Source: Anaerolineae bacterium
Lineage (GTDB): Bacteria; Chloroflexota; Anaerolineae; UBA4142; SHND01
Direction: 5' to 3'
Assembly: GCA_021463195.1 (NCBI GenBank)
Contig: JAJTXZ010000032.1
Span: 1 to 47,826, forward strand
DNA length: 47,826 bases
This document shows positions 2,887 through 46,070 of the stretch, in pieces. A program made the translations under genes and the position numbers. The notes below the pieces were generated by a model. That model was not told where the DNA came from and ran no database searches. It saw nothing but the letters and a program-made list of their open reading frames with translations. Position 1 is the first letter of the stretch, and each line of letters begins with the position of its first letter.

Positions 2887-2910
2887 ATTTTTACAATTCA
2901 ATCATTGAAT

Positions 2911-3020
2911 GTGCGGGGAGCTGGAGCGAGTCCGGCTGAGAGGAAGAACTGACGCGGCGTTGTTTGCCGCAGCCCATCTTCGACCCCATGACCTGATCCG
3001 GATAATGCCGGCGTAGGCAC
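2911..3020 (+). promoter_or_regulatory. TPP riboswitch (THI element) upstream of pdxS
   Basis: The conserved TPP aptamer blocks are present in order: GGGGAGC (2915-2921), GGCTGAGAGG (2934-2943), the variable P3a arm with a GCGGC...GCCGC stem, GACCCCATGACCTGATC (2982-2998) and GGATAATGCCGGCGTAGG (3000-3017). GTGC (2911-2914) and GCAC (3017-3020) close P1. A terminator hairpin follows at 3044, so thiamin pyrophosphate should turn transcription off. The first downstream gene is a PLP-synthase gene rather than a classical thi gene. Confidence 0.9.
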
Positions 3021-3043
3021 ACGAGAATTTTACAACGCTTCCG

Positions 3044-5191: not shown

Positions 5192-5836
5192 ATGAACGCT
5201 GTCATCGTCGCCAACGGCGAATTATCCAATAATGCGCGCTTGCAAAATATCTGGCAGCAAACAGAGCTGCGCATTGCGGCGGATGGCGGCGCGCGCAACG
5301 CGCGTTTGTTTCTCGAACGCGCGCCGCAGGTTGTCATTGGCGACATGGATTCGGTGGATAAAGAAACTCGCGTATGGCTTGCAGCCCATCACGCCGAGTT
5401 GATTCAATATCCGCGCGCCAAAGATGAAACGGATTTGGAACTCGCGTTACAGCTTGCGCACGCGCGCGGCGCGGACGAAATCACAATACTTGGCGCATTG
5501 GGCGGACGCGTAGATCAATTTCTGGCGAATGCGCTGTTATTGGCGCAGTATGCCAATTTAAAAATTGTGGATGCGGCAAGTGAACTGTGGATTGGCAAAG
5601 GCAACGATGTTGTGCATGGCGCAAAGGGTGAGATCGTTTCCTTGATTCCACTCGATGCAAAAGTTCAAGGCATCACGACAAAAGATTTAGAATATCCGCT
5701 GCGCGACGAAACATTGGAACGCGGCAGCACGCGCGGGATCAGCAACGTGATGCTTGGCGAACGCGCGCAAGTGAGTTTCAAACGCGGGATGCTGCTGATT
5801 GTGCATCTGTTTCGCCAAGCAAAATCTGAAATCTGA
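5192..5836 (+). CDS. thiN: Thiamine pyrophosphokinase
   Basis: ThiN transfers pyrophosphate from ATP to thiamine, making TPP in one step from salvaged thiamine. The 214-residue protein shows the family blocks RIAADGGARNA (about 28-38), VIGDMDSVDKETR (about 49-61), YPRAKDETDLELAL (about 74-87) and ITILGALGGRVDQFLAN (about 96-112). The acidic residues of DMDS and DETD bind metal-nucleotide. The C-terminal beta-domain is present (GSTRGISNVM). It follows pdxST and precedes a second TPP riboswitch with the thiamine importer, so uptake plus pyrophosphorylation form a salvage route. ThiN rather than ThiK/ThiL suggests free thiamine is the imported form. Confidence 0.93.
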   Translation: MNAVIVANGELSNNARLQNIWQQTELRIAADGGARNARLFLERAPQVVIGDMDSVDKETRVWLAAHHAELIQYPRAKDETDLELALQLAHARGADEITILGALGGRVDQFLANALLLAQYANLKIVDAASELWIGKGNDVVHGAKGEIVSLIPLDAKVQGITTKDLEYPLRDETLERGSTRGISNVMLGERAQVSFKRGMLLIVHLFRQAKSEI

Positions 5837-5842
5837 AATTTC

Positions 5843-5931
5843 TCCCGGGGAGCTCGGTAGAATCGGGCTGAGAGGGTGGTTCAAAACCACCGACCCTTTG
5901 AACCTGAAACAGGATAATGCCTGCGCAGGGA
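5843..5931 (+). promoter_or_regulatory. TPP riboswitch upstream of the thiamine ABC transporter
   Basis: The aptamer blocks are GGGGAGC (5847-5853), GGGCTGAGAGG (5865-5875), a P3 stem GGTGGTT...AACCACC, GACCCTTTGAACCTGA (5892-5907), and AGGATAATGCCTGCGCAGGGA (5911-5931). TCCC/GGGA close P1. It starts 7 bp after the thiN stop, so it may regulate read-through from the upstream operon as well as any local promoter. Confidence 0.92.
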
Positions 5932-5980
5932 ACATCGGTTTGCGTCGTTGAACATCAAGCGCCAAGTTTTTGATCATCAA

Positions 5981-9133: not shown

Positions 9134-10210
9134 ATGCTTCAGATTCAAAACATTTCAAAGAATTACAACGACGCGCCGCTGCTGCGCGATATTTCGTTCG
9201 ACGTCGCCGACGGCGAGATTGTTTGTTTGCTGGGTCCGAGCGGCACGGGCAAAACGACGCTGCTGCGGATCGTCGCGGGTTTGGAAAACGCTGACGCGGG
9301 GCGCGTCGTGTTCGATGGGAACAATTTGAAAAATGTTCCGCCGCACGCGCGCGGGTTCGGGCTGATGTTTCAAGACCTCGCGCTGTTTCCGCACAAAAAC
9401 GTTTTTGAAAATGTGGCGTTCGGTTTGCGGATGCAGAACGCGTCCGCGCATGAAATCGCAACGCGCGTGCATAAAACGTTAGAGCTCGTCGGACTCGATG
9501 CCGCGGTTTTTGCGAAACGCGATGTGAATCATTTGTCGGGCGGCGAACAGCAGCGCGTCGCGCTTGCGCGCACGCTCGCGCCGCGCCCGCGTTTCATCAT
9601 GTTCGACGAGCCGCTCGGCGCGTTGGATCGTCTCTTGCGCCAAGAGTTGGCGAACGAATTACGCGCGCTGTTGAAACGTTTGGGCTTGACCGCGCTGTAC
9701 GTGACGCATGATCAAGATGAAGCGTTTGCGCTGGCGGACCGTTTGATTCTGCTGCACCGCGGCAAAATTCAACAAAGCGGGACACCGCTGGAATTGTATA
9801 CGCAGCCGACGAGCGCTTTTGTCGCGCGGTTTATGGGATTGAACAATCTGGTGGAGATTAGAGAATTGGAGACTAGCGAACTGGAGACTGGAGACTGGAA
9901 ATTGCGCGCGCGAACAGAGGTAGGAGTTTTCGAGATTGCAAAAGAACGCGCGGGCAAAGAAAATGAATTTGTTTTGCCGCGTCCGCGCGCCATCGAACGA
10001 GTTGTGGAACATTCAGCGCGCGCGGAAAATGTTTTGCGCGGAAAAATTGTCGGGACGCAATGGCGCGGAGGGCATCAACAAATCGTTGTGGAAACGCGCG
10101 CGGGCAAATTTTTCTTTGAATGGGATGGCGCGGTAGAATTGAATCGCGAACGATTTTTCGAGTTGGACGCGCGCGAAATTCAATTTATCGCGCAAGGAGA
10201 AAAAACATGA
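9134..10210 (+). CDS. thiQ: Thiamine ABC transporter ATP-binding protein
   Basis: The 358-residue ABC ATPase powers the ThiBP importer. Visible motifs are Walker [10 protein letters not shown] (34-42), Q-loop MFQDLALFP (78-86), signature LSGGEQQ (134-140), Walker B FIMFDEP (154-160) and the switch histidine THD (191-193). After residue 235 comes a TOBE-like C-terminal domain, more like PotA/FbpC than the short E. coli ThiQ, so the transporter could accept another substrate. The link between the two domains (about 237-255, [14 protein letters not shown]) is translated heptamer repeat. ATG 9134 is the natural start of the nucleotide-binding domain. The stop overlaps the next ATG by 4 bp. Confidence 0.88.
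9850..9905. repeat. In-frame heptamer repeat inside thiQ
   Basis: GGAGATT, TGGAGAC, CTGGAGA (twice) and CTGGAAA units encode the acidic linker [14 protein letters not shown] between the ATPase and TOBE regions. It is the same repeat type as in the thiP-thiQ gap. Confidence 0.65.
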
Positions 10211-10569
10211 ATCTAGTTTCAGAAAAATGCATCGCGTGCCGCGCCGATGCGCCGCGCGCGACGGAACAAGAGATGCAAGAATGGTCGCCGCAAATTCCCG
10301 ACTGGCGCGTCATTGAACGCGCGGGCGAGCCGCAGTTGACGCGCACGTACAAATTCAAAAATTTTGCCGAAGCGTTAGCGTTCACGAATCGCGTGGGCGC
10401 GCTGGCGGAACAAGAAGATCATCATCCCGCGCTGCTTACCGAATGGGGTCAAGTGACGGTGAATTGGTGGACGCACAAAATCAGGGGACTGCATCGCAAC
10501 GATTTTGTGATGGCGGCGAAAACGGACGAATTGTATCAAACGCCAAACGCGCCCGAAAAAATATCGTAA
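10207..10569 (+). CDS. phhB: Pterin-4a-carbinolamine dehydratase
   Basis: The 120-residue enzyme dehydrates 4a-hydroxytetrahydrobiopterin formed by aromatic amino acid hydroxylases; in bacteria without a hydroxylase it is also linked to molybdopterin or folate metabolism. The active-site pattern E-x-DHHP ([11 protein letters not shown], about residues 65-75) followed by [18 protein letters not shown] is complete. An N-terminal extension with CIAC and ATEQEMQEW leads into PDWRVIE, normal for the family. ATG overlaps the thiQ stop (ATGA), so the gene is translationally coupled to the transporter although no functional link to thiamine is known. Confidence 0.93.
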
Positions 10570-10620
10570 CAGAATCGCCAAGCGCGCGGTATATTTTACA
10601 AGCTCCGCGCGCCGCATCAA

Positions 10621-12237
10621 TCAGAACGACGCGTCTCCTATCGTGAGCAGGATGCTAAATTCGATGGTTTGAAATTCAATGCCGTCAGCCGGCGCGGCTC
10701 GATGCAAAAATTCTTGAACCTTGGCATTGAACGCGCGTTGATTCGCCGCCTGTCCGCGCAGCGCGGCATCCGTCGTGACGAATAGCAGCGCTTGTTCAAT
10801 CAGCATTTCGGCGCGTTTTTCCAACGCGCTTTGGACTGTTTTCAAATCCAACGGGGCGGGCAGCCCGAGGGCTTGCGGACGCGCCAAGTCCGCCAGCACG
10901 CGGTCCCAACACAAATCCGGCGCGCGTACGCGATAGGACGCGTCAATATGCGCGCTGAGCCAACGGTTATCCCATTCGACGACATTGTGTTTGAAACGGC
11001 TATAGAGTTGGTCCGAGGTCGGGACAAACGCGACCACATCTTGATGAAACGGAATGAGCCAATGCACGCCGCGCGCTGTCAGGGGCCAAACACGTCCGCG
11101 TTCGACAAGGACTGCCGCTTGATTTGCGGGCAAACGCAGCCAGAGCTGGCGCGCGCCGGCGAGAATGACTAAAGCGAGCAACGCTAAACCAGCGCCCACA
11201 ATAACGCCGCCAATCAGATAGCGAACGAGATTACTCTCGTATTGCCAAAGCAGCGGCAGCGCTAATAGCAGCAATCCTGCCAGCGAACCGCCGAGCACGC
11301 CCAAACCTAAAAATGAAATCCATGTCCAAAACGTGACGCCGTGCGCCAAAACCAGGCGCGTCGAAAGCAAGCCCAAAGGCAAATGCGCGGGCGATTTAGC
11401 CGCCTCTTTTTGGGTTTTGGAAGATTCATTCGCTTTTGACGCGGCGGCAGCGTCTTGCTCCGCCGTGGGCTCTTTTTTGGGCGGAGGCACGGCAGAGTCT
11501 GTATTCGCGTTGAAATGAGCTTGATGCGACGCGGACGCGCTTGCGTTAGCGTTTGCGCCCGTGTCAGGCGGCGCGTCGCTTGGTGTTTCAGCCGTTTGTT
11601 GGTTTGCGTCGCGCGTCGCGTCAGCTGAATTGGGTTCGTTCGCGCGCGCCGTTTTTCCGTTCTGATTATTCACGTCCACGTTGGCGGACGCGGCTTGCGA
11701 TTCCGTCGCTTGGGCTTCGGCTTCGTGCGCCAAACCGAGTTCCACATATTTTCGCCCTAATTGCCCATACGCTTGGCGCGCGCATTCGGCGAACTCTTCC
11801 GAAGTCGGGCGCAGTAACACAAACGCGTCCGTAAAAGCGCGAAAACCCTGTGTCCAGCGATCGTGCTTGGCGTCGCACAACGCTTCATAGATGAAACCGC
11901 GCGTCAGCTGCGCGATGCCTTGTTCATGTTTAGCTTGCTGCTGCTCGAAATGATATACCGCTTTCTCGCACAATTCCGCCGCGCGCTCCCATTCTTCAAC
12001 GCTGGCGGCAAAGAAATAGGTCCACGCCATATACAGTCGCGCCGCGCCCAAAACATAATCGTCGTTCAAACGTTTGGCGCTCTCGATGCTCGACCACAGC
12101 AAGCGCAGCGCGGGCTGCAGTTGTCCGTTCGTCGCCAAGGTCGCCGCCTGTTGATGCAGCAAAATATTATTGTGGTCGCGTTCTTGCAAACCGCCCAATA
12201 ACATCTTGCAATTTTGCTGCGGTGACTGTTGAGTCAT
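10621..12237 (-). CDS. Membrane protein with TPR-like N-terminus and SPFH-like C-terminus
   Basis: This 538-residue protein has three parts. Residues 20-175 are helical repeats of TPR character (ALRLLWSSIESAKRL, AAELCEKAVYHFEQQQ, AYGQLGRKYVELGLA). Residues 180-285 are a low-complexity linker rich in Asn, Ala, Thr and Pro. Residues 300-332 and 337-365 are two membrane segments. The C-terminal 165 residues begin NQAAVLVERGRVWPLTARGVHWLIPF and continue with a prohibitin/band-7-like arrangement, matching the end of the neighbouring WD40 protein in style. ATG 12237 has GAGGTG upstream. It lies 103 bp downstream of the WD40-SPFH gene on the same strand, so the two probably act together as a membrane scaffold. 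Exact family is not recognised; the SPFH call is inference. Confidence 0.6.
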   Translation of the reverse strand: MTQQSPQQNCKMLLGGLQERDHNNILLHQQAATLATNGQLQPALRLLWSSIESAKRLNDDYVLGAARLYMAWTYFFAASVEEWERAAELCEKAVYHFEQQQAKHEQGIAQLTRGFIYEALCDAKHDRWTQGFRAFTDAFVLLRPTSEEFAECARQAYGQLGRKYVELGLAHEAEAQATESQAASANVDVNNQNGKTARANEPNSADATRDANQQTAETPSDAPPDTGANANASASASHQAHFNANTDSAVPPPKKEPTAEQDAAAASKANESSKTQKEAAKSPAHLPLGLLSTRLVLAHGVTFWTWISFLGLGVLGGSLAGLLLLALPLLWQYESNLVRYLIGGVIVGAGLALLALVILAGARQLWLRLPANQAAVLVERGRVWPLTARGVHWLIPFHQDVVAFVPTSDQLYSRFKHNVVEWDNRWLSAHIDASYRVRAPDLCWDRVLADLARPQALGLPAPLDLKTVQSALEKRAEMLIEQALLFVTTDAALRGQAANQRAFNAKVQEFLHRAAPADGIEFQTIEFSILLTIGDASF

Positions 12238-12340
12238 ATAGACACCTCGCGCCTAATACGCAATAACAATTTAAGAGCCGCGCGCCGGGTTCGGTATAAA
12301 ATCTTTTAGCGCATCAATCTCTGTCGAACGCGCGACGAAT

Positions 12341-15300
12341 TCAAGGCGAATCGAACGCTTCCGCTTGCGGCGGCGTCCCCGGCGGGACGTTGACTTGTGT
12401 CGAGTTTGGCAGCGCGCGCTCGACAACCGTCCCCTCAATCGCTTCGTCTTTTTTAAGGTTCCACAAATCGTCCTGAATAAAATTCAACGAGAGCCGCTCA
12501 ATCGCTTCGATATACCGCACCGCGATTTCGGAATCGAGAATAACGCCGCGATTTTTATCGCGCAGCGGGTCCGCGATTTGGCGCAGCAGCGCGTCGCGCA
12601 GCGCGGTCTTGGCGTCTTGTTGAATAATGATGGCATCGCGGCGCGTTTGCGCGCGCGCGATTTTCACCTGACGGTCCAGTTCGGCGTGTTTGCGATCTTG
12701 CAGCGCTTTGACCATCCGCTCTTCCAATTCAATTTCCGTAATGTTGAGCGATTCAATTTCGATGCCTTGCGCGCGCATCTTGTTTGACACTCGTTCGCGC
12801 AGCGTCCGAATCAACGTTTTACGCGCGCCCACGCCGCCCACGTATAAATCTTCAAAATATTCTTCGCCCGCCAAATCGCGCACCTGACTCGTCACATACG
12901 CTTCAATGGTCTTGGTGTAATCCGAATGTTCGGGCGTCCAAATTTTGGAGCGGATAATCGCTTCGAGCAATTCAAAGTTCTTTGTCTTGGCGTCGGACGG
13001 TTTAGTTCCATGCGCCGCAAAATCGCACGCGCCCTGCACGCAATGACGCGCCACCACTGTAATTTTTTCAAAGCGCATCTGGTCGCGCGTCAAAACATTT
13101 TTGACATTTATCGTCAAACTGCGCGCGTATAACGCCACCGGCATCGTGACGATTTCGCCTTGTTCGAGAAAAAATACGCCGGCGCCGACGACGCGCGAAA
13201 TGCGTCCGCCGCGCTCCAATACCGCCGCATAACCCTCGTCCACTGTCAGGACGCCGGGACCGCCTTGCTTGGGCGACGCGGAGCTGCCGATATTTTCGAT
13301 TTTATTATTGCGGACCGCCAGCGCCAGCAGCGGTTTGCCTTCGCGCACATTCGCCACATATTGCTGCGCGAGCCGCGGGTTCACCTCCGGCTGCGCGGCA
13401 AAATGAAAGGCGGCAATCTCTTTGTTCGTTCCATAAAACCGAAACCAAAACAATCCGGCAAAAAAGATGGCGGGAATGAATAACGCAAAAAGCAGACGCG
13501 AAGTCGGCGCGCGCATAATCCATTCTTCCAACGGACTGCGCAAACCCGGCTGCGTCAGCTCATCCATATCCACCGACAAGTACTGTTGGATCAAAGATCC
13601 GTCCGGCGCGGCGGTGACAATTTGATGTTCCGCATTCAGCGCGACCGCCATGATATTGCGCGAGAGCGTTTCGATGGGTTTTGGTTGACTCGCGCCGTCC
13701 TGTATATCAAACAGGTACAAGTTTTCATCGTCGCCCGCGCCGACGAAATGCCGATTATCCGCCGCGATAATCAGATTGGTAAATTGAATGCCCGACGCTT
13801 GAAATTCGCGCATCAATTTATAATCGGGCTGCGTTTGCCATACGCGCACCGTCGGTTGCGGTTTGGCATTGGCTCGCGGATTTTCAAAAATCACGCCCGC
13901 CGAAACGAGATACGCGCCATTCGGCGCAAAGCTGAGCGCGGTAATACGCAGCGGATGCGCGTTTTCGGCGCGCGCCGCAGCGTCGGGGCGAAAGACCCAG
14001 GCAAGCCATGCTTTGGGTTTATCCGGATCGAACTGCCAAAGATACACATTGCCTTGCGTATCGCCCGATGCCATTTGTTTGCCGTCCGCGCTAAAGGCGA
14101 GCGCCGAAATTTCATTCGTATGTTGACGCGTATCGGCGTACTCTGATTTATTTGTATTCCACAAACGCAGCGTGCCATCCGCATTGCCCAAAGCCACTAA
14201 CGGCAGCTTGGGATTGATTGCCATCGCGCTGATTGCGGCGTCGTTCCAGATTAATTCACGCTGCAAAAAAGCGCTTTTGCCCGAAAGAATCCATTTGCGC
14301 GCGGCGCCTTCGCGACTGAGCGTAATCAGCTCTTCGGCTTGGGTGGCAGCGTCCGAGTCAGCTTGACTATTCGCGCGCGCCGTCTGCGCCGCTTGCGTTG
14401 GCATAAAGCCAAGTTGGACAATATCATCGCGCGCGCCGCGCAGCGGATGACATTCCGCCGGCTGTTGAAAATCGAACGCGACGCAAATATGCACCACGCG
14501 CTTGCTGTCCACCGCCGCCACCATCGGACGCGCCGAGTTGCGATTCCACGCCAACGCTTGAATATCATTCACGGTATCCGATGTCGCGGCATTGAGGTCA
14601 AACGCTTGCGGATGCGCTTGAATCTTGTATTTGAGGCGCGACGACGCGATGCTGGGACAAGCGATCTTGTTGCGAGCGTCATATTCAGTCTGATTCACGC
14701 GTGTCAGCGGAAAAATTCGCACTTGGCCCGACGTTTCGCCCGTGACGAGATAATTGCCGGAAGGATCGAACAAAACGCGCGTGACGCGACTCGGCAATTC
14801 AAGCAAATCATAACGGCAGCCGATTGGATAGTCACGCAAAAAGACGCGCCCTTGAACCGCCGCGTTAGCGGGATTGAACGCGTCTGCGCCTTCCGCTGTC
14901 GCATAGATTTGCGCGGCGGGGCTAAAACCGGCGGCGGTTAGATTCATTACATCCGGCCGCCCATCCACTCGGGACAAATAGTGTGGAACTTCGGAAACGA
15001 TATTTTTATTCCAATTGATTTGCGTTGGATTAAAAACCCACGAATCCACTTTGCCGTGTTCGCTCACCACGGAAAGACGTACGCGGTTTCCATCGAGCGG
15101 CATAAATTCGAGCGCCATGATACTGTACGGCTGCCCTTCAAAATCATAAACCAAGCGCTGCCGCGCCAAGTCAAATAGGCGGATCTGATAATCGGCGCCG
15201 CCCGTCGCCAAAAAGCGGCTCGACGCGTCTAATGTCAACGCTGTTACCTTTAGCGCGTGCGCGCGCGTTTGATCTAACATGAGAACGGCGTCTGAACCAT

Positions 15301-16081
15301 CGCGCTTGATTTTCCATACAGCGACATCGCCGCTCACAAAGCCCGCGACCAACACAATTTTGTTAATGCTTGCGCCGCCGGCGTCCGCTTCGGGCCAAAG
15401 CCCCATCGCGAGCTGCGACACGGCGCCGTGTCCGCCCAAGAGTTGGCGTTTAAAGGTCGTGCCTTCGGCGTTCCAAAGCAGAATGTTGCCATCGCTGTCG
15501 CCCACCGCCAACATGTCGCCAAACGGCGAATACGCGACGGCTTGCAAATTTTGCGGATAGGTCGGCGGAATGGTTAGCTTATGCCGCCCATCATTATCCA
15601 TAATGTACGCATTGCCATTGCTGTCACTGGTCGCGAGACGCGAACCATCTTGATTGAACGCCATGGCGGCGATGCGGTCTTGAGTTTGAAGCGTTTGAAA
15701 CGGTCGGCGCTCGATGCGATAGTTAAAGTACGAATAGAAAAACAAGCCAAACAGCAGCGCCATGAGGCCTGCCATAAAATAGCGCATGGGGCGCATCACT
15801 TGCGTATGTTTGTTTCCGCCGAGACGCGCGCGCGCGTAGGGAATGGCAACGCGCCAAATGAAAAAGACCATGAGCAGCAAAAACGCCGCCGCAAAGGGTC
15901 CGTCAATTTTCAAGCGTTTGCCGAGCGGGATGCCCTGAATCTGAAAATTGGCGAGCGCGTCGCTTTTCTCATAGAGCCGAATTTCTTCCATTTGCAGCAC
16001 GTACACCAGCCCCAATAGAAAAACCGCGCCCAGAATCAATTTGAGCGTCAATTCGCCGTTTGCTTTGAACCAATCTTTCAT
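12341..16081 (-). CDS. WD40 propeller - SPFH/band 7 membrane protein
   Basis: The 1246-residue protein has three N-terminal membrane segments (about 11-31, 62-82, 103-122). A long WD40-type propeller region follows to about residue 850, with repeated units such as LATSDSNGNAYIMDNDG, LAVGDSDGNILLWNAEG, LATGGADYQIRLFDL, MASGDTQGNVYLWQF and LGNADGTLRLWN, enough for one or two propellers. A fourth membrane segment (LLFALFIPAIFFAGLFWF, about 890-910) precedes a C-terminal SPFH/prohibitin domain: VDEGYAAVLERGGRI...GVFFLEQGE, then ERMVKALQDRKHAELDRQVKIARAQTRRDA. SPFH proteins form cage-like membrane microdomains. Joining of a WD40 region to an SPFH domain in one chain is unusual. The AT-rich 450 bp upstream contains likely promoters in both directions. 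Confidence 0.75.
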   Translation of the reverse strand: MKDWFKANGELTLKLILGAVFLLGLVYVLQMEEIRLYEKSDALANFQIQGIPLGKRLKIDGPFAAAFLLLMVFFIWRVAIPYARARLGGNKHTQVMRPMRYFMAGLMALLFGLFFYSYFNYRIERRPFQTLQTQDRIAAMAFNQDGSRLATSDSNGNAYIMDNDGRHKLTIPPTYPQNLQAVAYSPFGDMLAVGDSDGNILLWNAEGTTFKRQLLGGHGAVSQLAMGLWPEADAGGASINKIVLVAGFVSGDVAVWKIKRDGSDAVLMLDQTRAHALKVTALTLDASSRFLATGGADYQIRLFDLARQRLVYDFEGQPYSIMALEFMPLDGNRVRLSVVSEHGKVDSWVFNPTQINWNKNIVSEVPHYLSRVDGRPDVMNLTAAGFSPAAQIYATAEGADAFNPANAAVQGRVFLRDYPIGCRYDLLELPSRVTRVLFDPSGNYLVTGETSGQVRIFPLTRVNQTEYDARNKIACPSIASSRLKYKIQAHPQAFDLNAATSDTVNDIQALAWNRNSARPMVAAVDSKRVVHICVAFDFQQPAECHPLRGARDDIVQLGFMPTQAAQTARANSQADSDAATQAEELITLSREGAARKWILSGKSAFLQRELIWNDAAISAMAINPKLPLVALGNADGTLRLWNTNKSEYADTRQHTNEISALAFSADGKQMASGDTQGNVYLWQFDPDKPKAWLAWVFRPDAAARAENAHPLRITALSFAPNGAYLVSAGVIFENPRANAKPQPTVRVWQTQPDYKLMREFQASGIQFTNLIIAADNRHFVGAGDDENLYLFDIQDGASQPKPIETLSRNIMAVALNAEHQIVTAAPDGSLIQQYLSVDMDELTQPGLRSPLEEWIMRAPTSRLLFALFIPAIFFAGLFWFRFYGTNKEIAAFHFAAQPEVNPRLAQQYVANVREGKPLLALAVRNNKIENIGSSASPKQGGPGVLTVDEGYAAVLERGGRISRVVGAGVFFLEQGEIVTMPVALYARSLTINVKNVLTRDQMRFEKITVVARHCVQGACDFAAHGTKPSDAKTKNFELLEAIIRSKIWTPEHSDYTKTIEAYVTSQVRDLAGEEYFEDLYVGGVGARKTLIRTLRERVSNKMRAQGIEIESLNITEIELEERMVKALQDRKHAELDRQVKIARAQTRRDAIIIQQDAKTALRDALLRQIADPLRDKNRGVILDSEIAVRYIEAIERLSLNFIQDDLWNLKKDEAIEGTVVERALPNSTQVNVPPGTPPQAEAFDSP

Positions 16082-16392
16082 CGCGCGCCTCCTGAGGATT
16101 CCAGCTGCGCGTCGCTATGGCGCGCAGCAAGCAAAGTCTTGAATATTTTAACAAAATTAGTATTTGGGTTTGTAATGAAATTGTAATATAAAAATACAAT
16201 TTTGGGCGATGAAAACCGATACAAAATTAGATTAAAAATTCGCGCAGCGGTTTGGACGAGACACCAGTTTGATATCGCAGGCAGCGACTGACCTGCGAAA
16301 ACGTCCGCAGGGACGTTTTGTATTCTTGTTGGCGCGAATTGGATTCGCCCGCAAACTGACCCCGAAGACGAATGCGCATGGATTTTACGAAA

Positions 16393-16420
16393 TTGTTTTT
16401 TGCATCGGTTGCGATACAAT
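16393..16420 (+). promoter_or_regulatory. Probable promoter of the TolB-like gene
   Basis: TTGTTT (16393-16398) and TACAAT (16415-16420) are 16 bp apart, 110 bp before the start codon. The remaining 16082-16392 gap is AT-rich around 16135-16230, a plausible promoter zone for the minus-strand WD40-SPFH gene, but no single pair of boxes stands out there. Confidence 0.4.
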
Positions 16421-16529
16421 ATATCGGCGCGGAAAAATTATTTACGCTTGCCCGCGCGTTTGATTCGGCAAGCCCAAGCGCTCGCAAGCATTCCGCAAGC
16501 ATTCTCGACCAAAGGAAAGTCATTTTTTC

Positions 16530-17921
16530 ATGAACAAGCAACTTGTGCGTTTCGGTTTATTAGCTTGCGCCGCGCTGTTCGGCGCGACGCTATTATTTAG
16601 CGGCGTGAGTTTTGCCGCGGGCGGAACCGGACCCGGCGACGCGTTTCTCATCAATGGCGCCACCATTACCGCGCCGCCCAATTCTCAAACGTGGTACAAA
16701 TTTCACGAGGCGGGCAACGCGCAACCGGTCAAAATAACGTTGGACGCGAACACGGTGCCCGGCATCGCTTTTCGCGTGTACACGCCCGACTCGATTGCGC
16801 GTTGGATTGCGCAATACGGACTGAATCCGGTCGGTGTCAGCAGCAAGTCACCGGGCAGCGATCAGGCATGGGTGGGACGTTTTGAATTTGAAGGCGCTTA
16901 TTACGTCGTTGTCGAAAACACGACGCCCTACTATGTCGCGTATCGGTTGAACGTCAGCGGCGATGGCGTCCAGACAGTCGTGACGCGCGCGCCAACGCCA
17001 ACGCCTTTGCCCAATCCGTTTGCGGCGGCGCCGCCGCTTGGCGCGCTGCGCGGCGGCGGAAAAATCGTGTTTCAAGAAGCGGCGGGCAGCAGCATTTATA
17101 CGGTGAACGCGGATGGCGCGAATTTGCGGCGCATCACGTACGGCATGGATCCCGCCTTTTCGCCCGACGGCAGCAAAATCGCGTTTGCGCGCGAAGGCGC
17201 GGTCGCGGGTCTATTTGTCATTAACGCGGATGGCACGAACGAGCGTATTGTGTATGGCAGCAATCAATTGCGCTCGCCGACCTGGATAGACAATAATCGG
17301 ATTGTCTTTTCAACAGTGACCGCTGAAAAAGAGAGCGCGCCAATTTGTTTTGGCGGACGTTGTTTTGGCGGCGGCACCTTTACCAAATGGTCGCTCAAAG
17401 AATACAATCTTGTGAATAAAGCGGTCAATGAGGTGATTACACCGCCGACGGGCGGCACAACGCCAAGTTACAATCCGGTCTTGAAAAATATCGCGTTTAT
17501 GAATCCCGAAAAGGGCTTGATGCTAACGACCTTGCAAGATGATGTTGTGCCACAGCTCATTAACGACGATATGTCCATCAATACACCCGTCATGTCGCCC
17601 GACGGCGCGCGGCTCACTTATATTGTGAGTCAACCACCCGCTTGGCAAACAGTCGTTTCAGTGTGGGATGGCACGAACCCGACGCTGTTGACCAAGAATG
17701 ATCCGTTATCGTTTCAACATCCCGATAATGTCGCGCCGACCTTTTCGCCGGATGGACAAGAAATTCTGTTTCTCTCGAATCGCAATGGCAAGTGGGAATT
17801 TTTCGCGATGAACGTTGACGGTTCGAATCTGCGCCAAGTGCTAAAAAATGTGACCAATCTTTTACGCATGGATTATAATTATGCGGCAGAGCGCATGGCG
17901 TCGTGGACAAGCGGCAATTAA
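16530..17921 (+). CDS. Secreted TolB-like beta-propeller protein
   Basis: The 463-residue protein has a Sec signal peptide (MNKQLVRFGLLACAALFGATLLFSG, cleavage likely after SFAA). Residues 32-150 form a beta-rich domain resembling bacterial pre-peptidase domains (QTWYKFHEAGNAQPVKITLD..., AYYVVVENTTPYYVAYRLNVSG). A proline-threonine linker (APTPTPLPNP) leads to a PD40/TolB-type propeller with the classic strands IYTVNADGANLRRIT, PAFSPDGSKIAFAREG, GLFVINADGTNERIV and PTFSPDGQEILFLSNRNGKWEFFAMNVDGSNLRQV. Such proteins are frequent in Chloroflexota and probably bind ligands or wall components outside the cell; no catalytic residues are evident. AAAGGA lies 13 bp before ATG 16530, and a strong terminator follows at 18016. 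Confidence 0.8.
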   Translation: MNKQLVRFGLLACAALFGATLLFSGVSFAAGGTGPGDAFLINGATITAPPNSQTWYKFHEAGNAQPVKITLDANTVPGIAFRVYTPDSIARWIAQYGLNPVGVSSKSPGSDQAWVGRFEFEGAYYVVVENTTPYYVAYRLNVSGDGVQTVVTRAPTPTPLPNPFAAAPPLGALRGGGKIVFQEAAGSSIYTVNADGANLRRITYGMDPAFSPDGSKIAFAREGAVAGLFVINADGTNERIVYGSNQLRSPTWIDNNRIVFSTVTAEKESAPICFGGRCFGGGTFTKWSLKEYNLVNKAVNEVITPPTGGTTPSYNPVLKNIAFMNPEKGLMLTTLQDDVVPQLINDDMSINTPVMSPDGARLTYIVSQPPAWQTVVSVWDGTNPTLLTKNDPLSFQHPDNVAPTFSPDGQEILFLSNRNGKWEFFAMNVDGSNLRQVLKNVTNLLRMDYNYAAERMASWTSGN

Positions 17922-18564: not shown

Positions 18565-18635
18565 GTAGGAGCAAAGCATTGACAGGCACATCCGCGTATC
18601 GAACCGCAGCCGCAAATATCAATGCTTTGCCCTTA
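18565..18635. repeat. 72-bp palindromic element, copy A
   Basis: The left arm GTAGGAGCAAAGCATTGACA and right arm TCAATGCTTTGCCCTTA are inverted repeats around a divergent centre. The right end supplies the TAA stop of hsdR (18633-18635). One of five related copies within 6.7 kb. Confidence 0.8.
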
Positions 18636-21600
18636 TGTTTTTGTTTTGCGATAGCGTTCAAACAACCAATCAAATAATTGTTTGGCGAATTCAGGGTCGT
18701 CGGTGACCTGTTTGTAAAATTTGAAATCGGAATCAATGATTTCTTGCAGATGGTCGGTGGCAACGTGGTCAAAGGTGAGGCGCGCATTGTCGGGGGTGTT
18801 GATTTGGACGCTGGCGTTGAGCGCGGGGTCGGCGGCGAGTTTCGTTTCCAAATCTTGAATCGAGCGCAGCGCCTGCGCGCCGAGCTGCGCGCCGAAACGG
18901 TCATTCAGTTCCTTGATAATTTGCGACAGCGGTTCGATTTCTTCGGGATTGGAAACGGCGACGCCTTTTGGCGCGGCGGGGTCGAGTTCGGTGACGCCGC
19001 GCGCGAGTTTGATTTTGCCGCTCGAGGTTTGTTGCACGCGGTACGATTCCATGTCAATGTTTTTTTGAATTTCAACCGGCAGTTGTTCGCGTTTGATGGG
19101 CAGCTTGCGTAACAACAATCGTCCGAACACATACAAGCGTTCGAGGTCGGCGTCAACGAACGTGATGACTTGGGAGAGGAACGCATAGAGCCGCACGTAA
19201 TCTTGCAAGGTGCTGCGAAAGCCGACGCGTTCGTCATCGCTTGCTTGCGTGTAACGCGCGACGGTGGGCGCGAGCGCGGCGTGCAATTTGTCTTGCGTCG
19301 CTTTGGGGTCAAAAAAAATGTTGGCGAATTGATTTACGTCCGCGCTCGTGAAAAAACGATAATCGGCGAGGCGCGTTTCCAAATCGTACAACAAATTCGG
19401 GTCAGTCGCTTCTTTGAGCAGCAAGCGGTCATAGTACGGCTCGAACCCTTTTTGAATGTCGTCGGGTTCATTCGCAAAATCCAAAACGAGCGTGCCGTCT
19501 TTAGCGGGATGCACGCGATTGAGACGCGATAAAGTTTGAACGGCGTGCAAGCCGCGCAATACTTTATCAACGTACATGGCATATAGCAGCGGTTGGTCAA
19601 AGCCCGTTTGAAATTTTTCCGCGACGATGAGCAGTCGAAATTCGTCTTGATTGAAAAATTGCGCGGTCTGTTTTTCGCCGATGCTTATGCCCGCCGCGCG
19701 CGTGTTCATTTCCGTTTCCGTGTACAACAAACCGTCGTCGGGATCCTTGACCGTTCCCGAAAACGCGACGAGCGCTTGAAAATCGCAGCCGCGTTCGCGC
19801 AAAATTTTATCCACCGCGAGTTTGTAGCGCACGGCGTGCAAGCGCGAACGCGTCACAATCATCGCTTTGGCTTGACCGCCAATGCGCGGCGCGACGTGTT
19901 CGACAAAATGTTCCACCATGATGGCGGCTTTTTGCGCGATGGTGGATTCGTGCAGTTCGACAAACGAACGCAGCAAATACGTCGCTTTGCGGCGGTCATA
20001 GCGCGGGTCGGCGGCGACGCGTTTCAGCAAACTCCAATACGCTTTGTAGGTCGTGTAATTTTCCAAGACATCGAGAATAAAATTTTCCTCAATCGCTTGG
20101 CGCATACTGTACAAACTGAACGGCGCGTATTCGCCGCCGAGTTGTTTCACGCCAAAGAGTTCGAGCGTTTGCGGTTTCGGCGTCGCGGTGAACGCGAAAT
20201 AACTCACGTTCGGCAGCGGTCCGCGCTTTTTGATTTCCGCAATCACGCGGTCCTCGTAATCGGGTTCCTCGCCCATTTCTTGCGCTTCGGCTTCCGCCAA
20301 TGTTTTGGGCGCCAGCACCGCTTGCACTTGGGCGTTCGCTTCGCCGCCTTGCGACGAGTGCGCTTCGTCAATGATGACGGCGAAACGATTGATGGAAAAC
20401 ATTTGCATCTCGCGCGCAATGACGGGAAATTTTTGCAGTGTGGTGACGATAATTTTTTTGCCCGCCGCGAGCGCGTCTTGTAATTGCCTCGAAGTTTGGT
20501 CAATGTTTTCGACGATGCCGAGCGTTTGCTCGAATTGGCGCACGGTGCGTTGCAGTTGACGGTCCAGCACGCGGCGGTCAGTGATGACGATGACGGAATC
20601 GAAGACGTTTTGATTGTCTGCGTTGTGCAAATGCGTGAGTTGATGCGCGAGCCACGCAATCGAATTGCTCTTGCCGCTGCCCGCGCTGTGCTGAATCAAA
20701 TAACGCTGTCCCGCGCCGCGCGTCCGCGCATCGGCGAGCAGACGGCGCACGGTGTCGAGTTGATGATAGCGCGGGAAAATGAGCGCGCGTTTGTTGGTTT
20801 TGTTGCCGTCGTCGTCCTCTGCTTGAATCTCTTGGACAAAATTTTGCGCGAGGTCGAGCAAACTGTCGCGCGCCCAAATTTGTTCGTACAAATACGCGGT
20901 GGCGAAACCGCGCCACGAAGGCGGATTGCCCGCGCCGTTTTGATTGCCTTGGTTGAACGGGAGAAAACGCGTGTGCGCGCCTTGCAAATGCGTCGTCATG
21001 TACGCCAAATCGGGGTCGAGCGCGAAATGCGCGAGGACGCGCCCGAACGCAAACAACGGTTCGCGCGGGTCGCGCGTCGTTTTGTATTGTTTAATCGCGT
21101 CTTGGACGGTTTGACCGGTGAGGGGATTTTTTAATTCGGCGGTGACGATGGGCAAGCCGTTGAGAAAGAGTACGAGGTCGAGCGAGTTTTCATTTTTGAC
21201 GCTGTATTTGAGTTGGCGAATTTCGGAAAAGAGATTGCCGAGATATAGTTTTTGCGATTGTTCGTTCAAACCGGACGAAGGGCGAAAATAGGCGAGCCGA
21301 AAGCGGCTGCCGTTCGCTTTTAACCCATTCCGCAACACATCGAGCGTGCCGCGCGCTTGAATCTGCTGCGCGAGCCGTTGAAATAATTTGTCGTGCGCGT
21401 CCTTGCCGTGCTGTTTTTTGAATTTGTCCCATTCTTGCGGCTGCGTGGCATAAATAAAATCCAACACGTCTTGGCGAATCAAACACAACTGTTTGTCGTA
21501 CTGTTCGGGTTCGCGTTTGTGATAGCCGCCGGGGATAAATTCATGCGCGGCGTTTGACGTTTCGCGCGTGACCTGCACCGCCGCGCGCCCCGCATCGGGT

Positions 21601-21662
21601 CCGCCGAGCAAGAGGGTCGCCTCGAGCGTGGCTTCAAAATTTTTTTCGGAAATGTCTATCAT
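18633..21662 (-). CDS. hsdR: Type I restriction enzyme, R (endonuclease/translocase) subunit
   Basis: HsdR cuts DNA after ATP-driven translocation in complex with HsdM and HsdS. The 1009-residue length fits the family. An N-terminal PD-(D/E)xK nuclease domain has Asp162 (LDLVLF) and Glu176-x-Lys178 (VTAELKNP). The SF2 translocase has Walker A HSAGSGKSN (326-334), DEAH at 432-435 (IIDEAHSSQGG), motif III YFAFTATPKP and late motifs (VAEKFQTGFDQPLLYAMYVDK, QTLSRLNRVHPAKDG). The C-terminal helical domain that contacts the methylase is intact, ending FERYRKTKT. The stop lies in palindromic element A, and element B lies 19 bp upstream of the start. It is separated from hsdS by a RAYT transposase gene, and no close promoter was seen. 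Confidence 0.95.
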   Translation of the reverse strand: MIDISEKNFEATLEATLLLGGPDAGRAAVQVTRETSNAAHEFIPGGYHKREPEQYDKQLCLIRQDVLDFIYATQPQEWDKFKKQHGKDAHDKLFQRLAQQIQARGTLDVLRNGLKANGSRFRLAYFRPSSGLNEQSQKLYLGNLFSEIRQLKYSVKNENSLDLVLFLNGLPIVTAELKNPLTGQTVQDAIKQYKTTRDPREPLFAFGRVLAHFALDPDLAYMTTHLQGAHTRFLPFNQGNQNGAGNPPSWRGFATAYLYEQIWARDSLLDLAQNFVQEIQAEDDDGNKTNKRALIFPRYHQLDTVRRLLADARTRGAGQRYLIQHSAGSGKSNSIAWLAHQLTHLHNADNQNVFDSVIVITDRRVLDRQLQRTVRQFEQTLGIVENIDQTSRQLQDALAAGKKIIVTTLQKFPVIAREMQMFSINRFAVIIDEAHSSQGGEANAQVQAVLAPKTLAEAEAQEMGEEPDYEDRVIAEIKKRGPLPNVSYFAFTATPKPQTLELFGVKQLGGEYAPFSLYSMRQAIEENFILDVLENYTTYKAYWSLLKRVAADPRYDRRKATYLLRSFVELHESTIAQKAAIMVEHFVEHVAPRIGGQAKAMIVTRSRLHAVRYKLAVDKILRERGCDFQALVAFSGTVKDPDDGLLYTETEMNTRAAGISIGEKQTAQFFNQDEFRLLIVAEKFQTGFDQPLLYAMYVDKVLRGLHAVQTLSRLNRVHPAKDGTLVLDFANEPDDIQKGFEPYYDRLLLKEATDPNLLYDLETRLADYRFFTSADVNQFANIFFDPKATQDKLHAALAPTVARYTQASDDERVGFRSTLQDYVRLYAFLSQVITFVDADLERLYVFGRLLLRKLPIKREQLPVEIQKNIDMESYRVQQTSSGKIKLARGVTELDPAAPKGVAVSNPEEIEPLSQIIKELNDRFGAQLGAQALRSIQDLETKLAADPALNASVQINTPDNARLTFDHVATDHLQEIIDSDFKFYKQVTDDPEFAKQLFDWLFERYRKTKT

Positions 21663-21681
21663 GGTGATACGTTGGGCATCC

Positions 21682-21753
21682 GTAGGGGCAAAGCATTGAC
21701 ATTCGCGGATGCGACTCGATGCGCGTACGTTCCTGTCAATGCTTTGCCCCTAC
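21682..21753. repeat. 72-bp palindromic element, copy B
   Basis: Perfect 20-bp terminal inverted repeats GTAGGGGCAAAGCATTGACA (21682-21701) and its complement (21734-21753) enclose a 32-bp centre. It lies between hsdR and the RAYT transposase gene. Confidence 0.9.
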
Positions 21754-21779
21754 GCGCGTATCGCGCGATACGCGCGCCA

Positions 21780-22379
21780 TTATACGTGATAATTTTCATC
21801 GGTTTGCCAATTCATTGGATTATTTTCAATGTATACGCGAATGCGTTCCAACGCGGCATCGTTACGAATGATGTGTTCGTAATAATTGCGCTGCCAAATC
21901 GGACGGTCCGCGTGCGTGGGAATTTTGTGAATGTGCCGCGCGGTGATGGATTTGAAATTTTGGACAATCGCGTTCAATGAACGCGGTTGTGTGCCATGCG
22001 GCGTATTTTGTAGGGGCAAAGCATTGGCATTGGCATCCGCGTCGGATAAACCAGCCGCGTCTGCCAATGCTTTGCCCCTACGCGCGTCGTCGGCGATACG
22101 CGCGGGGTTGTGGACAATGACGACAATGCCGTGAATATGATTCGGCATGATGACAAACGCATCCAATTCGATGTTCCGAAAATGCGTGGCTAATTGTGTC
22201 CAACAGGTTATCACAATTTCGCCGATTTGGTTGGTTTGCATTTCGCCGTTGGCGATGTCGCCGAAAAGACATTCGCGTTGGTGCGCGCACAAGGTGATGA
22301 AATACGCGCCTTGTTGGGTGTAATCGTATCCTTTGAGCCGAATCGAACGGCGATGATGTTTTTGCGGGTCATATTTCAT
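21780..22379 (-). CDS. REP-associated tyrosine transposase (RAYT, Y1 family) with in-frame insertion
   Basis: The 199-residue protein is a TnpA-REP-type HUH transposase. It has GYDYTQQGAYFITLCAHQRECLFG near the N-terminus, the HUH motif in FVIMPNHIHGIVVIV, and the catalytic tyrosine region PIWQRNYYEHIIRN near the C-terminus. Single-copy RAYTs act on short palindromic repeats. After the HUH motif, 24 residues (RRGKALADAAGLSDADANANALPL) are encoded by palindromic element C, inserted without breaking the frame. The open frame upstream to 22472 is element D translated in the same way, so the true start is ATG 22379 (MKYDPQKHHRRS). Whether the interrupted enzyme is still active is unclear, because the insert lies between the HUH and tyrosine motifs. 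Confidence 0.85.
   Translation of the reverse strand: MKYDPQKHHRRSIRLKGYDYTQQGAYFITLCAHQRECLFGDIANGEMQTNQIGEIVITCWTQLATHFRNIELDAFVIMPNHIHGIVVIVHNPARIADDARRGKALADAAGLSDADANANALPLQNTPHGTQPRSLNAIVQNFKSITARHIHKIPTHADRPIWQRNYYEHIIRNDAALERIRVYIENNPMNWQTDENYHV
22010..22081. repeat. 72-bp palindromic element, copy C, inside the RAYT gene
   Basis: Terminal repeats GTAGGGGCAAAGCATTGGCA (22010-22029) and its exact complement (22062-22081) flank a centre with GTCGGATAAACC. The length of exactly 72 bp preserves the reading frame of the transposase and adds 24 codons. Confidence 0.92.
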
Positions 22380-22390
22380 GATTGTTATAT

Positions 22391-22462
22391 GTAGGGGCAA
22401 AGCATTGGCATTCGCGTTCGCGTCGGATAAACCATTCGCGTCTGCCAATGCTTTGCCCCTAC
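22391..22462. repeat. 72-bp palindromic element, copy D
   Basis: It has the same 20-bp arms as copy C (22391-22410 and 22443-22462) and a nearly identical centre. It sits between the RAYT start codon and the hsdS stop codon. Confidence 0.92.
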
Positions 22463-22468
22463 GGACGA

Positions 22469-23743
22469 TCAACCATCCCGCACATCCACCTTACCTGTCA
22501 CCGCCGCCGCAATCAACGCGCCGCGATATTCGCGCAATCGTTCAATGGCGTCTTGGATTTTTGCGACAAGCGCGTCGTATTTTGATGTTTCACGCTCGAT
22601 GTGATTTGTAATTTCCATCTGCTCTTTCAAGGGTGGTAATGTTACCAGAATTTCTTTGAGATGATACGCTTTAATTCCAATGGCGGTCGAACCTGTTGCG
22701 CGGCTCCATAATTCACCTTGTCCTGCAAGCGATGTCAAAAAGTACTGAAGAAAATCATTCGTTATTTGAGATTTGTCCGCTTTTAACAAAATGATTCGTT
22801 GGGCAAGCGCAATTCTTGTGTCTGTAATTTGGGCGGTTTCCCCCAACGGAGCTTCAGTTGTCACAAGTACATCGCCAAGTTCTGGCAATCCGCGAATCAT
22901 CCAATCATCATAATCTTGCTCGCGAAGATATTCTTGTGATAATTCAAAATCAATTCGTCCATTCTTGACATTTCTTGCTGTAACCAATGGTATTCCAGCA
23001 GAAACCTTTTCAGGAGTTGCGCCACGATAATCAACGAATTTATTGATTACACGACGGAGTGGACAAAGCCCCCACCCCTCCGGCACCTCCCCCACCCATT
23101 CCACGCCCGAATCTTTCATCGGCGCGTTGGCGTCCAACCCTTTGGTCACGGCGCGGCTGATGAGCGCGGTGCGTTTTTCTTGCAAGCGTTCGATGAGTTG
23201 TTCTTTTTTGGCGATGAGTGCGTCGAGGCGCGCGGTCTCACGGTCGAGGAACGCGGCGATGGCGTGTTGTTCGGGGAGAAGGGGCACGGGAATGAAATTG
23301 CCATAAGCGACATCGCGACTCAATCCGGGTATCGCACTATCTTGAGACGCTTGGTCAAGATTAAGCAAACGTAAAACATGAGCAAGCCATTTTAAATCCG
23401 CAGAGGTGTTGCGCGAATCTATAAAATATGTTGTATCAATCGCAAAGACAGGAACTTCTGAAAAATTTATCTTGCCAAACGAACCTTTGCGCCCAATCAC
23501 AATGACAGGAGCAAACGTATTTGCCACGCTATGAACATCAACTTGTCCATTTGAACCATATACAGGAACATTGCCTCGTTCACGTTCCTCTGCCGCAAGC
23601 GAATCGCCATAAATGAAACGCGCGACACTTTTTAACCGCCTCACCTCCCAATGCGCGGGGATGTCGCCGAGCCAGGGGACGTTGGAGGGTTTGTAGGCGG
23701 GGTAGGGTTGCCAACGTCGGGTGTTTTGAATCATGGAATTCAT
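22469..23743 (-). CDS. hsdS: Type I restriction enzyme, S (specificity) subunit
   Basis: HsdS supplies DNA sequence recognition for the methylase and nuclease. The 424-residue protein has two target recognition domains, each followed by a conserved helical spacer: LPEQHAIAAFLDRETARLDALIAKKEQLIERLQEKRTALI after the first (its motif split here only for citation) and LKEQMEITNHIERETSKYDALVAKI after the second. The start of the first domain (YPAYKPSNVPWLGDIPAHWEVRRLK) and of the second (GVEWVGEVPEGWGL) are typical. The frame is open from a TTG at 23764; ATG 23743 or ATG 23734 is more likely. It is followed by palindromic element D 6 bp after the stop. The partner hsdM lies 1.5 kb away beyond an opposite-strand gene pair, so hsdS has its own promoter in 23744-23992. 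Confidence 0.94.
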   Translation of the reverse strand: MNSMIQNTRRWQPYPAYKPSNVPWLGDIPAHWEVRRLKSVARFIYGDSLAAEERERGNVPVYGSNGQVDVHSVANTFAPVIVIGRKGSFGKINFSEVPVFAIDTTYFIDSRNTSADLKWLAHVLRLLNLDQASQDSAIPGLSRDVAYGNFIPVPLLPEQHAIAAFLDRETARLDALIAKKEQLIERLQEKRTALISRAVTKGLDANAPMKDSGVEWVGEVPEGWGLCPLRRVINKFVDYRGATPEKVSAGIPLVTARNVKNGRIDFELSQEYLREQDYDDWMIRGLPELGDVLVTTEAPLGETAQITDTRIALAQRIILLKADKSQITNDFLQYFLTSLAGQGELWSRATGSTAIGIKAYHLKEILVTLPPLKEQMEITNHIERETSKYDALVAKIQDAIERLREYRGALIAAAVTGKVDVRDG

Positions 23744-23891
23744 GGGTAAAAATTGAGAATTCAAAAATAGCTCTTGACTTGGAACGGATGTTCTGTCATA
23801 ATTGCGTCAAATCGAACGCGCGTTCTGATGGAATGTTTTGTCCCCGCGCGCCGCTCCGCGCTACTATTTTCCTCGGTTGTTTCAATTCGCG

Positions 23892-23920
23892 TTGACACCC
23901 GCGCGCGCCGCTTGTATAAT
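23892..23920 (+). promoter_or_regulatory. Perfect consensus sigma70 promoter
   Basis: TTGACA (23892-23897), a 17-bp spacer and TATAAT (23915-23920) match the sigma70 consensus at every position. It drives the opposite-strand pair beginning at 23993 and is the strongest promoter seen in the window. Confidence 0.85.
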
Positions 23921-23992
23921 CCGAAAGAAGGTCGCAAAGCGTCACGCTTGGCGCAAATCGGGCAGAGGGCGTGACAACTTGCGAGGTGCGAA

Positions 23993-24736
23993 ATGGATAA
24001 CGATACGCTAACCCTTGCGCTCAATGGCGAGGTCCCCTTGCAAGAGTTTGCCCAGGCGCTGAACTATTTCAACGCGCTGGTGCAAGGCCTCTCCAATGAA
24101 ATTGCCCATGACGCCGCGATTGAATGGGTCATTGACACGCTCGAGGCGGGCAGCGCCATTACGACGGTGAAAGGCGAGACGGAACAGATGGAACGGCTCG
24201 CGGCGGTTATCACTGGGTACGCGACGGTGGGCAAAGCCCTGCACACGCATCAACCCATTCCCTATTCTGACAAAGTTCGCATCCCCGCGCAAAACCTCAC
24301 CAAACTGCTCAACGGTCATATCACCTCGCTGCGCTTCGAGACGTCGTACGATGATTATATCGTCGAAAGTCGCGCGGAAGGCAAGTCCGCGCTCAAACCC
24401 ACGTATGCGTATGGACGTTTGAAAGGAATTGTGCAAACGCTCTCGGCGCGGCGCGGCATTCGCTTTACGCTCTATGACGTTCTCTCGGACCGCCCCATTG
24501 CGGGCTATTTGAAAGAGAGCCAAGAAGAGCTCATTCGTCCGTACTGGGGCAAAAAAGTGTACGTCTCGGGCAAAATCGGACGTGACCCCAAAACGGGCAG
24601 AGCGTTTGCGATTCGCGAAATCTCTGACATTCAAGCGGTCGAAAGCAAACCCGGCGGATTTCGTCGCGCCAGAGGCATTCTCGATTTAGCGGGCGAAACT
24701 TCGGAAAGCATCACGGCGGCGCTTCGCAATGGCTAA
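23993..24736 (+). CDS. Conserved-looking protein of unknown function in the hsd island
   Basis: I do not recognise this 247-residue protein. It starts MDNDTLTLALNGEVPLQEFAQAL; the N-terminal 80 residues look alpha/beta (ALNYFNALVQGLSNEIAHDAAIEWVIDTLEAG), and the C-terminal part has beta-rich motifs (RGIRFTLYDVLSDRPIAGYL, WGKKVYVSGKIGRDPKTGRAFAIREISDI) suggestive of a small barrel. There is no signal peptide or membrane segment. It has a perfect sigma70 promoter 72 bp upstream and a GAGGTG ribosome site. Its stop overlaps by 8 bp the ATG of a PIN-domain gene, so the two form a unit. It is larger than a standard VapB antitoxin and lacks an obvious DNA-binding N-terminus. The pair lies inside the type I restriction locus, opposite in strand to hsdS and hsdM. 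Confidence 0.7.
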   Translation: MDNDTLTLALNGEVPLQEFAQALNYFNALVQGLSNEIAHDAAIEWVIDTLEAGSAITTVKGETEQMERLAAVITGYATVGKALHTHQPIPYSDKVRIPAQNLTKLLNGHITSLRFETSYDDYIVESRAEGKSALKPTYAYGRLKGIVQTLSARRGIRFTLYDVLSDRPIAGYLKESQEELIRPYWGKKVYVSGKIGRDPKTGRAFAIREISDIQAVESKPGGFRRARGILDLAGETSESITAALRNG

Positions 24737-30981: not shown

Positions 30982-31014
30982 GCTCGGAACAGATGCTCAA
31001 GTGAGGGGTAGATT

Positions 31015-43839: not shown

Positions 43840-43840
43840 C

Positions 43841-46068: not shown

Positions 46069-46070
46069 GG

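Follow-up and report, generated by a model that had tools for sequence, protein, structure and literature searches.

The closest described counterparts of the system reported here are the paired SPFH membrane proteins HflK/HflC (SPFH3) and the flotillin 1/2 cages. HflK/HflC have a single N-terminal transmembrane (TM) segment and a periplasmic SPFH domain. A second group is formed by the SPFH-NfeD operons (SPFH1/2/5), in which an SPFH gene is accompanied by a partner gene (PMC2636767). Kaur et al. 2020 (PMC7159879) also place domains of the Band7-like, TPR and propeller types at the effector position of the VMAP ternary systems of multicellular bacteria. The subject of this study is a pair of neighboring genes from an uncultured Anaerolineae bacterium (assembly GCA_021463195.1), one encoding a 1246-residue WD40-SPFH protein and the other a 538-residue partner with a TPR-like and a second SPFH domain. 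They lie on contig JAJTXZ010000032.1, which was analyzed over its full length of 47,826 nucleotides (hereafter, the window) and represents the entire contig C70 of a 4.72 Mb genome in 143 contigs.

The pair shares with HflK/HflC and the flotillins the combination of two SPFH membrane proteins, with SPFH homology by profile. It differs in that a TM loop of one subunit contains a WD40 cassette and the other subunit has TPR-like repeats. Unlike HflK/HflC, the larger protein has four predicted TM helices and an SPFH domain predicted to be cytoplasmic from its positive-inside count; no FtsH gene was seen beside the pair. As in the SPFH-NfeD operons, an SPFH gene has a partner, which in relatives is a peptidase fold, but the partner is a TPR-SPFH or a TPR-LexA/S24 protein and no adjacent NfeD domain was seen. 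With the VMAP and MoxR-vWA systems, as described in PMC7159879, the pair has Band7-like, TPR and propeller domains in common, and EAD, TIR and CHAT domains are encoded near two relatives; in contrast, no vWA, MoxR or VMAP component was found among the scanned proteins, and the propeller is predicted to lie outside the cell. The literature in open access, in the portions available, yielded no description of a bacterial WD40-SPFH fusion or of an SPFH protein with a TPR-LexA partner.

Architecture of the gene pair

A sequence-only reading of this stretch had proposed two adjacent minus-strand genes whose membrane proteins differ in their N-terminal interaction domains, WD40 and TPR-like, and share a band-7 type C-terminus. 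Both open reading frames (ORFs) are present, 103 bp apart on the same strand (Table 1), and the observation of a WD40-SPFH protein beside a TPR-like/SPFH partner is confirmed. The Pfam matches of the larger protein are well above the cut-offs of 27 bits for WD40 and 23.6 bits for Band_7, with 114 and 65.5 bits, respectively. In a PDB profile search, its SPFH domain matches the PH stomatin (4.2e-9) as well as prohibitin and HflK.

Table 1. Positions in the window of the two genes, their domains and the flanking genes.
Feature	Positions	Strand	Residues or length	Basis
WD40-SPFH gene	12341..16081	-	1246 aa, ATG start	ORF call, Pfam
TM1	15995..16051	-	11-29	hydropathy 2.39
TM2	15842..15898	-	62-80	hydropathy
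TM3	15725..15781	-	101-119	hydropathy
WD40 region, predicted extracytoplasmic	13562..15709	-	about 125-840	Pfam, repeat model, place between TM3 and TM4
TM4	13442..13498	-	862-880	hydropathy
SPFH/Band_7 domain, predicted cytoplasmic	12644..13246	-	946-1146	Pfam, PDB profile matches
Partner gene (TPR-SPFH)	10621..12237	-	538 aa, ATG start	ORF call
TPR-like helical N-terminal domain of partner	11689..12216	-		family A2; leave-one-out E 2.2e-55
Low-complexity A/S/N/K-rich linker of partner	11338..11682	-	about 186-300	sequence
Two hydrophobic segments of partner	11143..11331	-	about 303-365	approximate, from sequence; hydropathy computed for homologue L026
Divergent SPFH/Band_7 domain of partner	10669..11133	-	369-523	Pfam, PDB profile search
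Pterin-4a-carbinolamine dehydratase, marking one flank of the syntenic site	10120..10569	+		Pfam, synteny
TolB-like PD40 propeller protein, right flank	16530..17921	+		Pfam; G001 and G005 have relatives at this locus

The assignment of the partner's C-terminus to SPFH/Band_7 is borderline but consistent. Band_7 scores 21.4 bits for the whole protein, slightly under the cut-off, 24.1 bits for the C-terminal fragment alone, slightly over it, and 23.7 bits in the search of its own genome, where nine of ten Band_7 matches, both pair proteins among them, exceed the cut-off. The homologues agree: four of the five aligned members of the C-terminal family match Band_7 (best 1.7e-10), and the family profile finds stomatin structures at 5e-4. 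Thus, a C-terminus unrelated to SPFH, which the sequence-only reading had named as the result that would count against it, was not found. The TPR-like N-terminus fared less clearly, being indicated by homologues, one of which has a sub-threshold TPR_11 match (20.3 bits against a cut-off of 26.8), and by an all-helical, low-confidence structure model, while Pfam makes no TPR assignment for the N-terminus of the window partner itself.

The WD40 domain is present as proposed but is not N-terminal, since three TM helices precede it and one follows. The loop between TM2 and TM3 is rich in R and K in the window protein (5 K/R and 0 D/E in 20 residues) and contains 3-7 K/R within 18-25 residues in all six WD40 members; by the positive-inside rule, this loop is predicted to be cytoplasmic, which would place the WD40 part outside and the SPFH domain inside. 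Weak hydropathy peaks within WD40 or near-SPFH sequence were left out (residues 237-255 of the window protein, 522-540 and 805-823 of homologue L030; L-numbers denote fetched homologue loci). A WD40-less relative in G001 (G-numbers denote genomes of the class sample, the window genome being G000) retains the identical TM layout, with a TM3-TM4 loop of 34 residues instead of the WD40 part. The latter is therefore a cassette inserted between TM3 and TM4 and no simple N-terminal fusion.

The repeat model counts eight WD40 repeats in the window protein (a divergent copy) and in L026, 13 in L027, 11 in L028, and 12 each in L030 and L032. Pro/Thr-rich linkers, read from the sequence, divide the propellers in L027, L028, L030 and L032 and appear to resemble the linkers of secreted proteins. 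The WD40 region is likely to consist of two propellers.

Linkage, module exchange and replacement at one site

Within the order to which the window genome belongs, 14 SPFH genes occur in 12 of 20 genomes, and six of them carry WD40. A TPR gene is adjacent, or one gene away, for 12 of the 14, across eight genera; at G013:C15 the gene in between encodes a TIR protein, and two loci (G013:C162 and G018) have no TPR neighbor. The partners end in one of two ways. Five are TPR-SPFH proteins (G000, G001, G003, G006, G011), and six are TPR-S24 proteins (G004, G008, G012:C29, G013:C15, G016, G019); a sixth of the TPR-SPFH kind, at G012:C10, is cut by the contig end, and contig C29 begins with the missing type of C-terminus (Band_7 33.3 bits). 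All six TPR-S24 partners score above the Pfam cut-off for S24 and, when aligned, keep A-G, G-x-S-M and L-K invariant, which we take to be the cleavage site and the Ser-Lys catalytic dyad of LexA. Presence or absence of WD40 combines with either partner type, so that all four combinations are found. In G016, for example, a WD40-SPFH protein accompanies the window's TPR type fused with S24 (leave-one-out E values: TPR part 1.4e-48, S24 5.2e-20). WD40 is dispensable, and the C-terminus of the partner, SPFH or LexA-like S24, is exchangeable.

The TPR type of the window (A2) is nearly absent away from an SPFH gene. It was found in eight of 396 class genomes, seven of which are the model's own rows, all adjoining an SPFH gene, with G369 as the single addition (7e-11). 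In the corresponding search for TPR-S24, the six matches below 1e-100 are likewise the model's own rows, and the informative result is the scarcity of other strong matches; the remaining matches listed mostly cover only the S24 part, in LexA-size frames. In G006, the partner (L027:5107-7323) runs on from TPR-SPFH into a PsuG-like (Indigoidine_A) domain (202.7 bits). In several other relatives, too, a PsuG-like gene, judged by sequence, stands beside the TPR gene. Two SPFH modules occur in G012, one with WD40 and the cut TPR partner (L028, G012:C10) and one with a short SPFH protein and TPR-S24 (L029, G012:C29); these contigs may be contiguous, a ClpB-type gene then separating the modules.

In the genus of the window genome, the site of the pair has thiamine-transport/pterin-dehydratase genes on one side and a TetR-ABC exporter cluster on the other, and its content differs from species to species. 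G003 holds TPR-SPFH and WD40-SPFH, with the pterin gene on the opposite side; G000 holds the same two genes, with the TetR-ABC genes missing and the TolB-like gene next. G001 has TPR-SPFH and a short SPFH protein, to the left of which lie some 12 kb of other DNA and a pterin relic, and G004 has TPR-S24 with a short SPFH protein. In G005 the site is empty, the pterin dehydratase lying directly beside TetR at a distance of about 60 bp, and in G002 no relative of the pair was found and the pterin gene is elsewhere. Compared with G003 or the window, the identity of the flanking genes is 66-85% for G001 and 57-79% for G004, the exception being a 235-residue ORF in the G004 flank with 29% identity to the TolB-like protein across 170 residues; the SPFH proteins are 26% (G001) and 30% (G004) identical. 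In the tree, the SPFH protein of G001 groups with G000 and G003 (99/99), and that of G004 with G008 and G013 (97-99% support) rather than with its own genus. These placements imply that at least one state of the locus arose by replacement and not by divergence in place. The pair is thus swapped or absent between species at one chromosomal site.

Beyond the order, the distribution was surveyed with SPFH profile A1 in Chloroflexota class and phylum samples; the class searches scored the best five or eight first-look candidates per genome, so that paralogues may escape. Matches at 1e-20 or better were obtained in 39 of 396 class genomes (eight being the model's own rows) and in one of 400 genomes of the phylum sample, namely the window genome itself. 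Frames above 1000 residues, the WD40 forms, are confined to G000, G003, G006, G012, G013 and G016, all of one order. The fusion, which the sequence-only reading had called unusual, is indeed so within this sample, with five further genomes of the order and none of the other 376 class genomes, and the pair recurs as well; independent WD40-SPFH fusions in other phyla are possible. Among plasmids, tblastn found matches in 127 records; the 12 listed cover only the WD40 part (query about 120-846) and none the SPFH domain. A single origin of WD40 was considered and rejected: the tree requires at least two changes and, with many forks unresolved, does not distinguish gain from loss. Outside the order, 27 loci were fetched and a core SPFH ORF was called in 26, of which ten have tandem SPFH pairs and ten a TPR-like neighbor (weak profile matches counted). 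In some of them (L073, L084), the S24-like domain lacks the Ser and Lys, as judged by eye. Among those with scanned neighbors, PfkB genes lie near two loci and an Indigoidine_A gene beside one.

Genomic surroundings

The immediate neighbors of the pair are the pterin dehydratase and the TolB-like protein, and neither FtsH nor NfeD was seen beside it in the window. Genes for vWA, MoxR or VMAP-type proteins were absent from 14 scanned window proteins (part of the window ORFs) and 20 scanned proteins of the relatives' loci. With PADLOC 2.0.0, the pair matches no system; one gene gives a HEAT-ARM_XIII match in the WD40 region only, the other none. A promoter and terminator scan of positions 10400-16700 gave more matches than shuffled controls, none of which decides whether the two genes form an operon.

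Relatives have more suggestive neighbors. The TIR gene at G013:C15 (L065:6785-7588) separates a WD40-less SPFH gene from TPR-S24, and in G018 a TIR-EAD8-CHAT gene (L067:9089-11959) adjoins a WD40-less SPFH gene; both are candidate effectors of the module. Moreover, an AAA gene adjoins the partner in G019, a KAP NTPase adjoins the SPFH gene in G304, and ClpB/ClpC-type AAA genes lie close to the modules of L029 and, judging from sequence, L031.

The window also carries several defense genes. Type I restriction-modification genes (HsdR, HsdS and HsdM, 18633-27333) include an IS200-type transposase ORF (21780-22472) between HsdR and HsdS. Two CRISPR-like arrays with different repeats (31012-33400, 34 copies; 37160-38033, 12 copies) are present, and a WYL/helicase-C gene (33491-35458) comes after the first of them. 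A 90-nt direct repeat (29324-29413 and 36455-36544, 90% identical) with a hairpin-like inverted repeat brackets this first array and the WYL gene. The CRISPR effector region (39103-47720) encodes a RAMP-like protein (39103-41619) and a Cas10d-like protein (46071-47720; PADLOC Cas10d 1.9e-128). On the other side of the pair are two TPP riboswitches (2904-3036 and 5836-5948), the second directly preceding genes for a solute-binding protein and an ABC transporter, presumably thiamine related.

Possible function of the pair

The sequence-only reading had regarded the pair as a membrane scaffold with many ligands. The membrane SPFH pair stands, while the scaffold is too general a description: the position of WD40 in a predicted extracytoplasmic loop, its dispensability, the exchangeable C-terminus of the partner and the swapping of the locus suggest a sensor or receptor module instead. 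In the proposed explanation, to which we assign a probability of roughly 40%, the two genes would encode the subunits of a single SPFH assembly in the membrane, its propeller sensor being extracytoplasmic and its TPR dock cytoplasmic. The larger subunit would span the membrane four times and project its WD40 double propeller outward from the TM3-TM4 loop, with the SPFH domain inside. The smaller one would contribute TPR-like repeats and a second SPFH domain, both cytoplasmic, as well as two TM helices. On the cytoplasmic face, its SPFH domain and that of the larger subunit may co-assemble into a ring or cage, as the flotillin 1/2 and HflK/HflC heteromers do, and the pair could work like a hetero-ring of this type turned into a receptor. 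Binding of an external ligand or envelope component by the propellers would cluster or rearrange the ring, upon which the TPR repeats would recruit or release a cytoplasmic client. Given the sister loci with TPR-S24 (with intact Ala-Gly site and Ser-Lys dyad) or with TIR and TIR-EAD8-CHAT genes, the output is probably signaling or regulated proteolysis.

Several points weigh against this explanation. The topology of the WD40-SPFH protein is a prediction, and WD40 repeats in bacterial conflict proteins are mostly cytoplasmic. The structure models, built from two-sequence alignments (window and L025), have a mean pLDDT of 46.0 and 33.9, and nothing beyond their helical content was used. Aligning the two C-terminal domains, as had been suggested, did produce a profile-profile match, albeit a weak one (E 7.5e-4, probability 25%), so that the SPFH domains of the two proteins are distant relatives; against the tandem second SPFH domain of other families the partner profile (A3) reaches 4e-4, compared with the above value against A1, and these figures do not decide its orthology to that second domain. 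G013:C162 encodes a WD40-SPFH protein without any TPR partner within 19 kb, the window's own partner has no S24 domain, and TIR or CHAT neighbors occur at only two of the 14 loci, neither of which is the window pair.

A different account is a scaffold for membrane-protein quality control or for microdomains, comparable to HflK/C or flotillin, in which an SPFH cage surrounds or neighbors an AAA protease and the WD40 and TPR domains are client adaptors with no part in signaling. It has the precedent of the SPFH family, the HflK match of the WD40-SPFH profile, the ClpB/ClpC-type genes near some modules and the tandem SPFH genes of the non-order loci, which recall hflK-hflC. However, the SPFH domains of HflK/C are periplasmic and those of the pair predicted to be cytoplasmic, FtsH and NfeD were not seen next to the window pair, and locus swapping together with TIR, CHAT and S24 associations is untypical of housekeeping proteostasis. 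We consider such a scaffold unlikely.

The same associations, the swapping within the genus and the defense genes of the contig could instead point to an anti-phage or conflict module, whose SPFH assembly senses an infection-induced membrane change and activates TIR, CHAT or protease effectors, the effector of the window pair being encoded elsewhere. The domain set reported for VMAP ternary systems by Kaur et al. 2020 (PMC7159879) is in keeping with this. Yet no vWA, MoxR or VMAP-type gene was identified beside the pair among the scanned proteins, PADLOC recognizes neither protein save via generic WD40 repeats, and outside the genus PsuG/Indigoidine_A and phosphonate-type transport genes (mostly by the look of the sequence) are the commoner neighbors. 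We consider a conflict role unlikely as well. That the two genes are functionally unrelated and alike merely by a common fold, as the weak match of their SPFH domains might indicate, is very improbable and already disfavored by the shared strand and short spacing, the recurrence of the adjacency across eight genera and the near absence of the TPR type away from SPFH genes.

If the receptor explanation is carried to its furthest consequence, the pair might represent a new class of Anaerolineae transmembrane receptors. In such an SPFH hetero-ring, the WD40 antenna outside the cell would gate a TPR platform in the cytoplasm, and this platform would be wired exchangeably to a second SPFH domain, to TIR/CHAT death effectors or to an autoprotease of the LexA type; the whole would be swapped at one site between species like an immune-receptor locus. 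This generalization is speculative, and we hold it to be doubtful. The known roles of SPFH assemblies are those of cages and organizers of microdomains, and what they sense is largely open. Should the proposed explanation prove true, the pair, with a large external propeller that close relatives dispense with and a partner whose output domain is exchanged for a self-cleaving peptidase fold, would give direct access to the way in which an SPFH ring turns an external signal into a cytoplasmic one.

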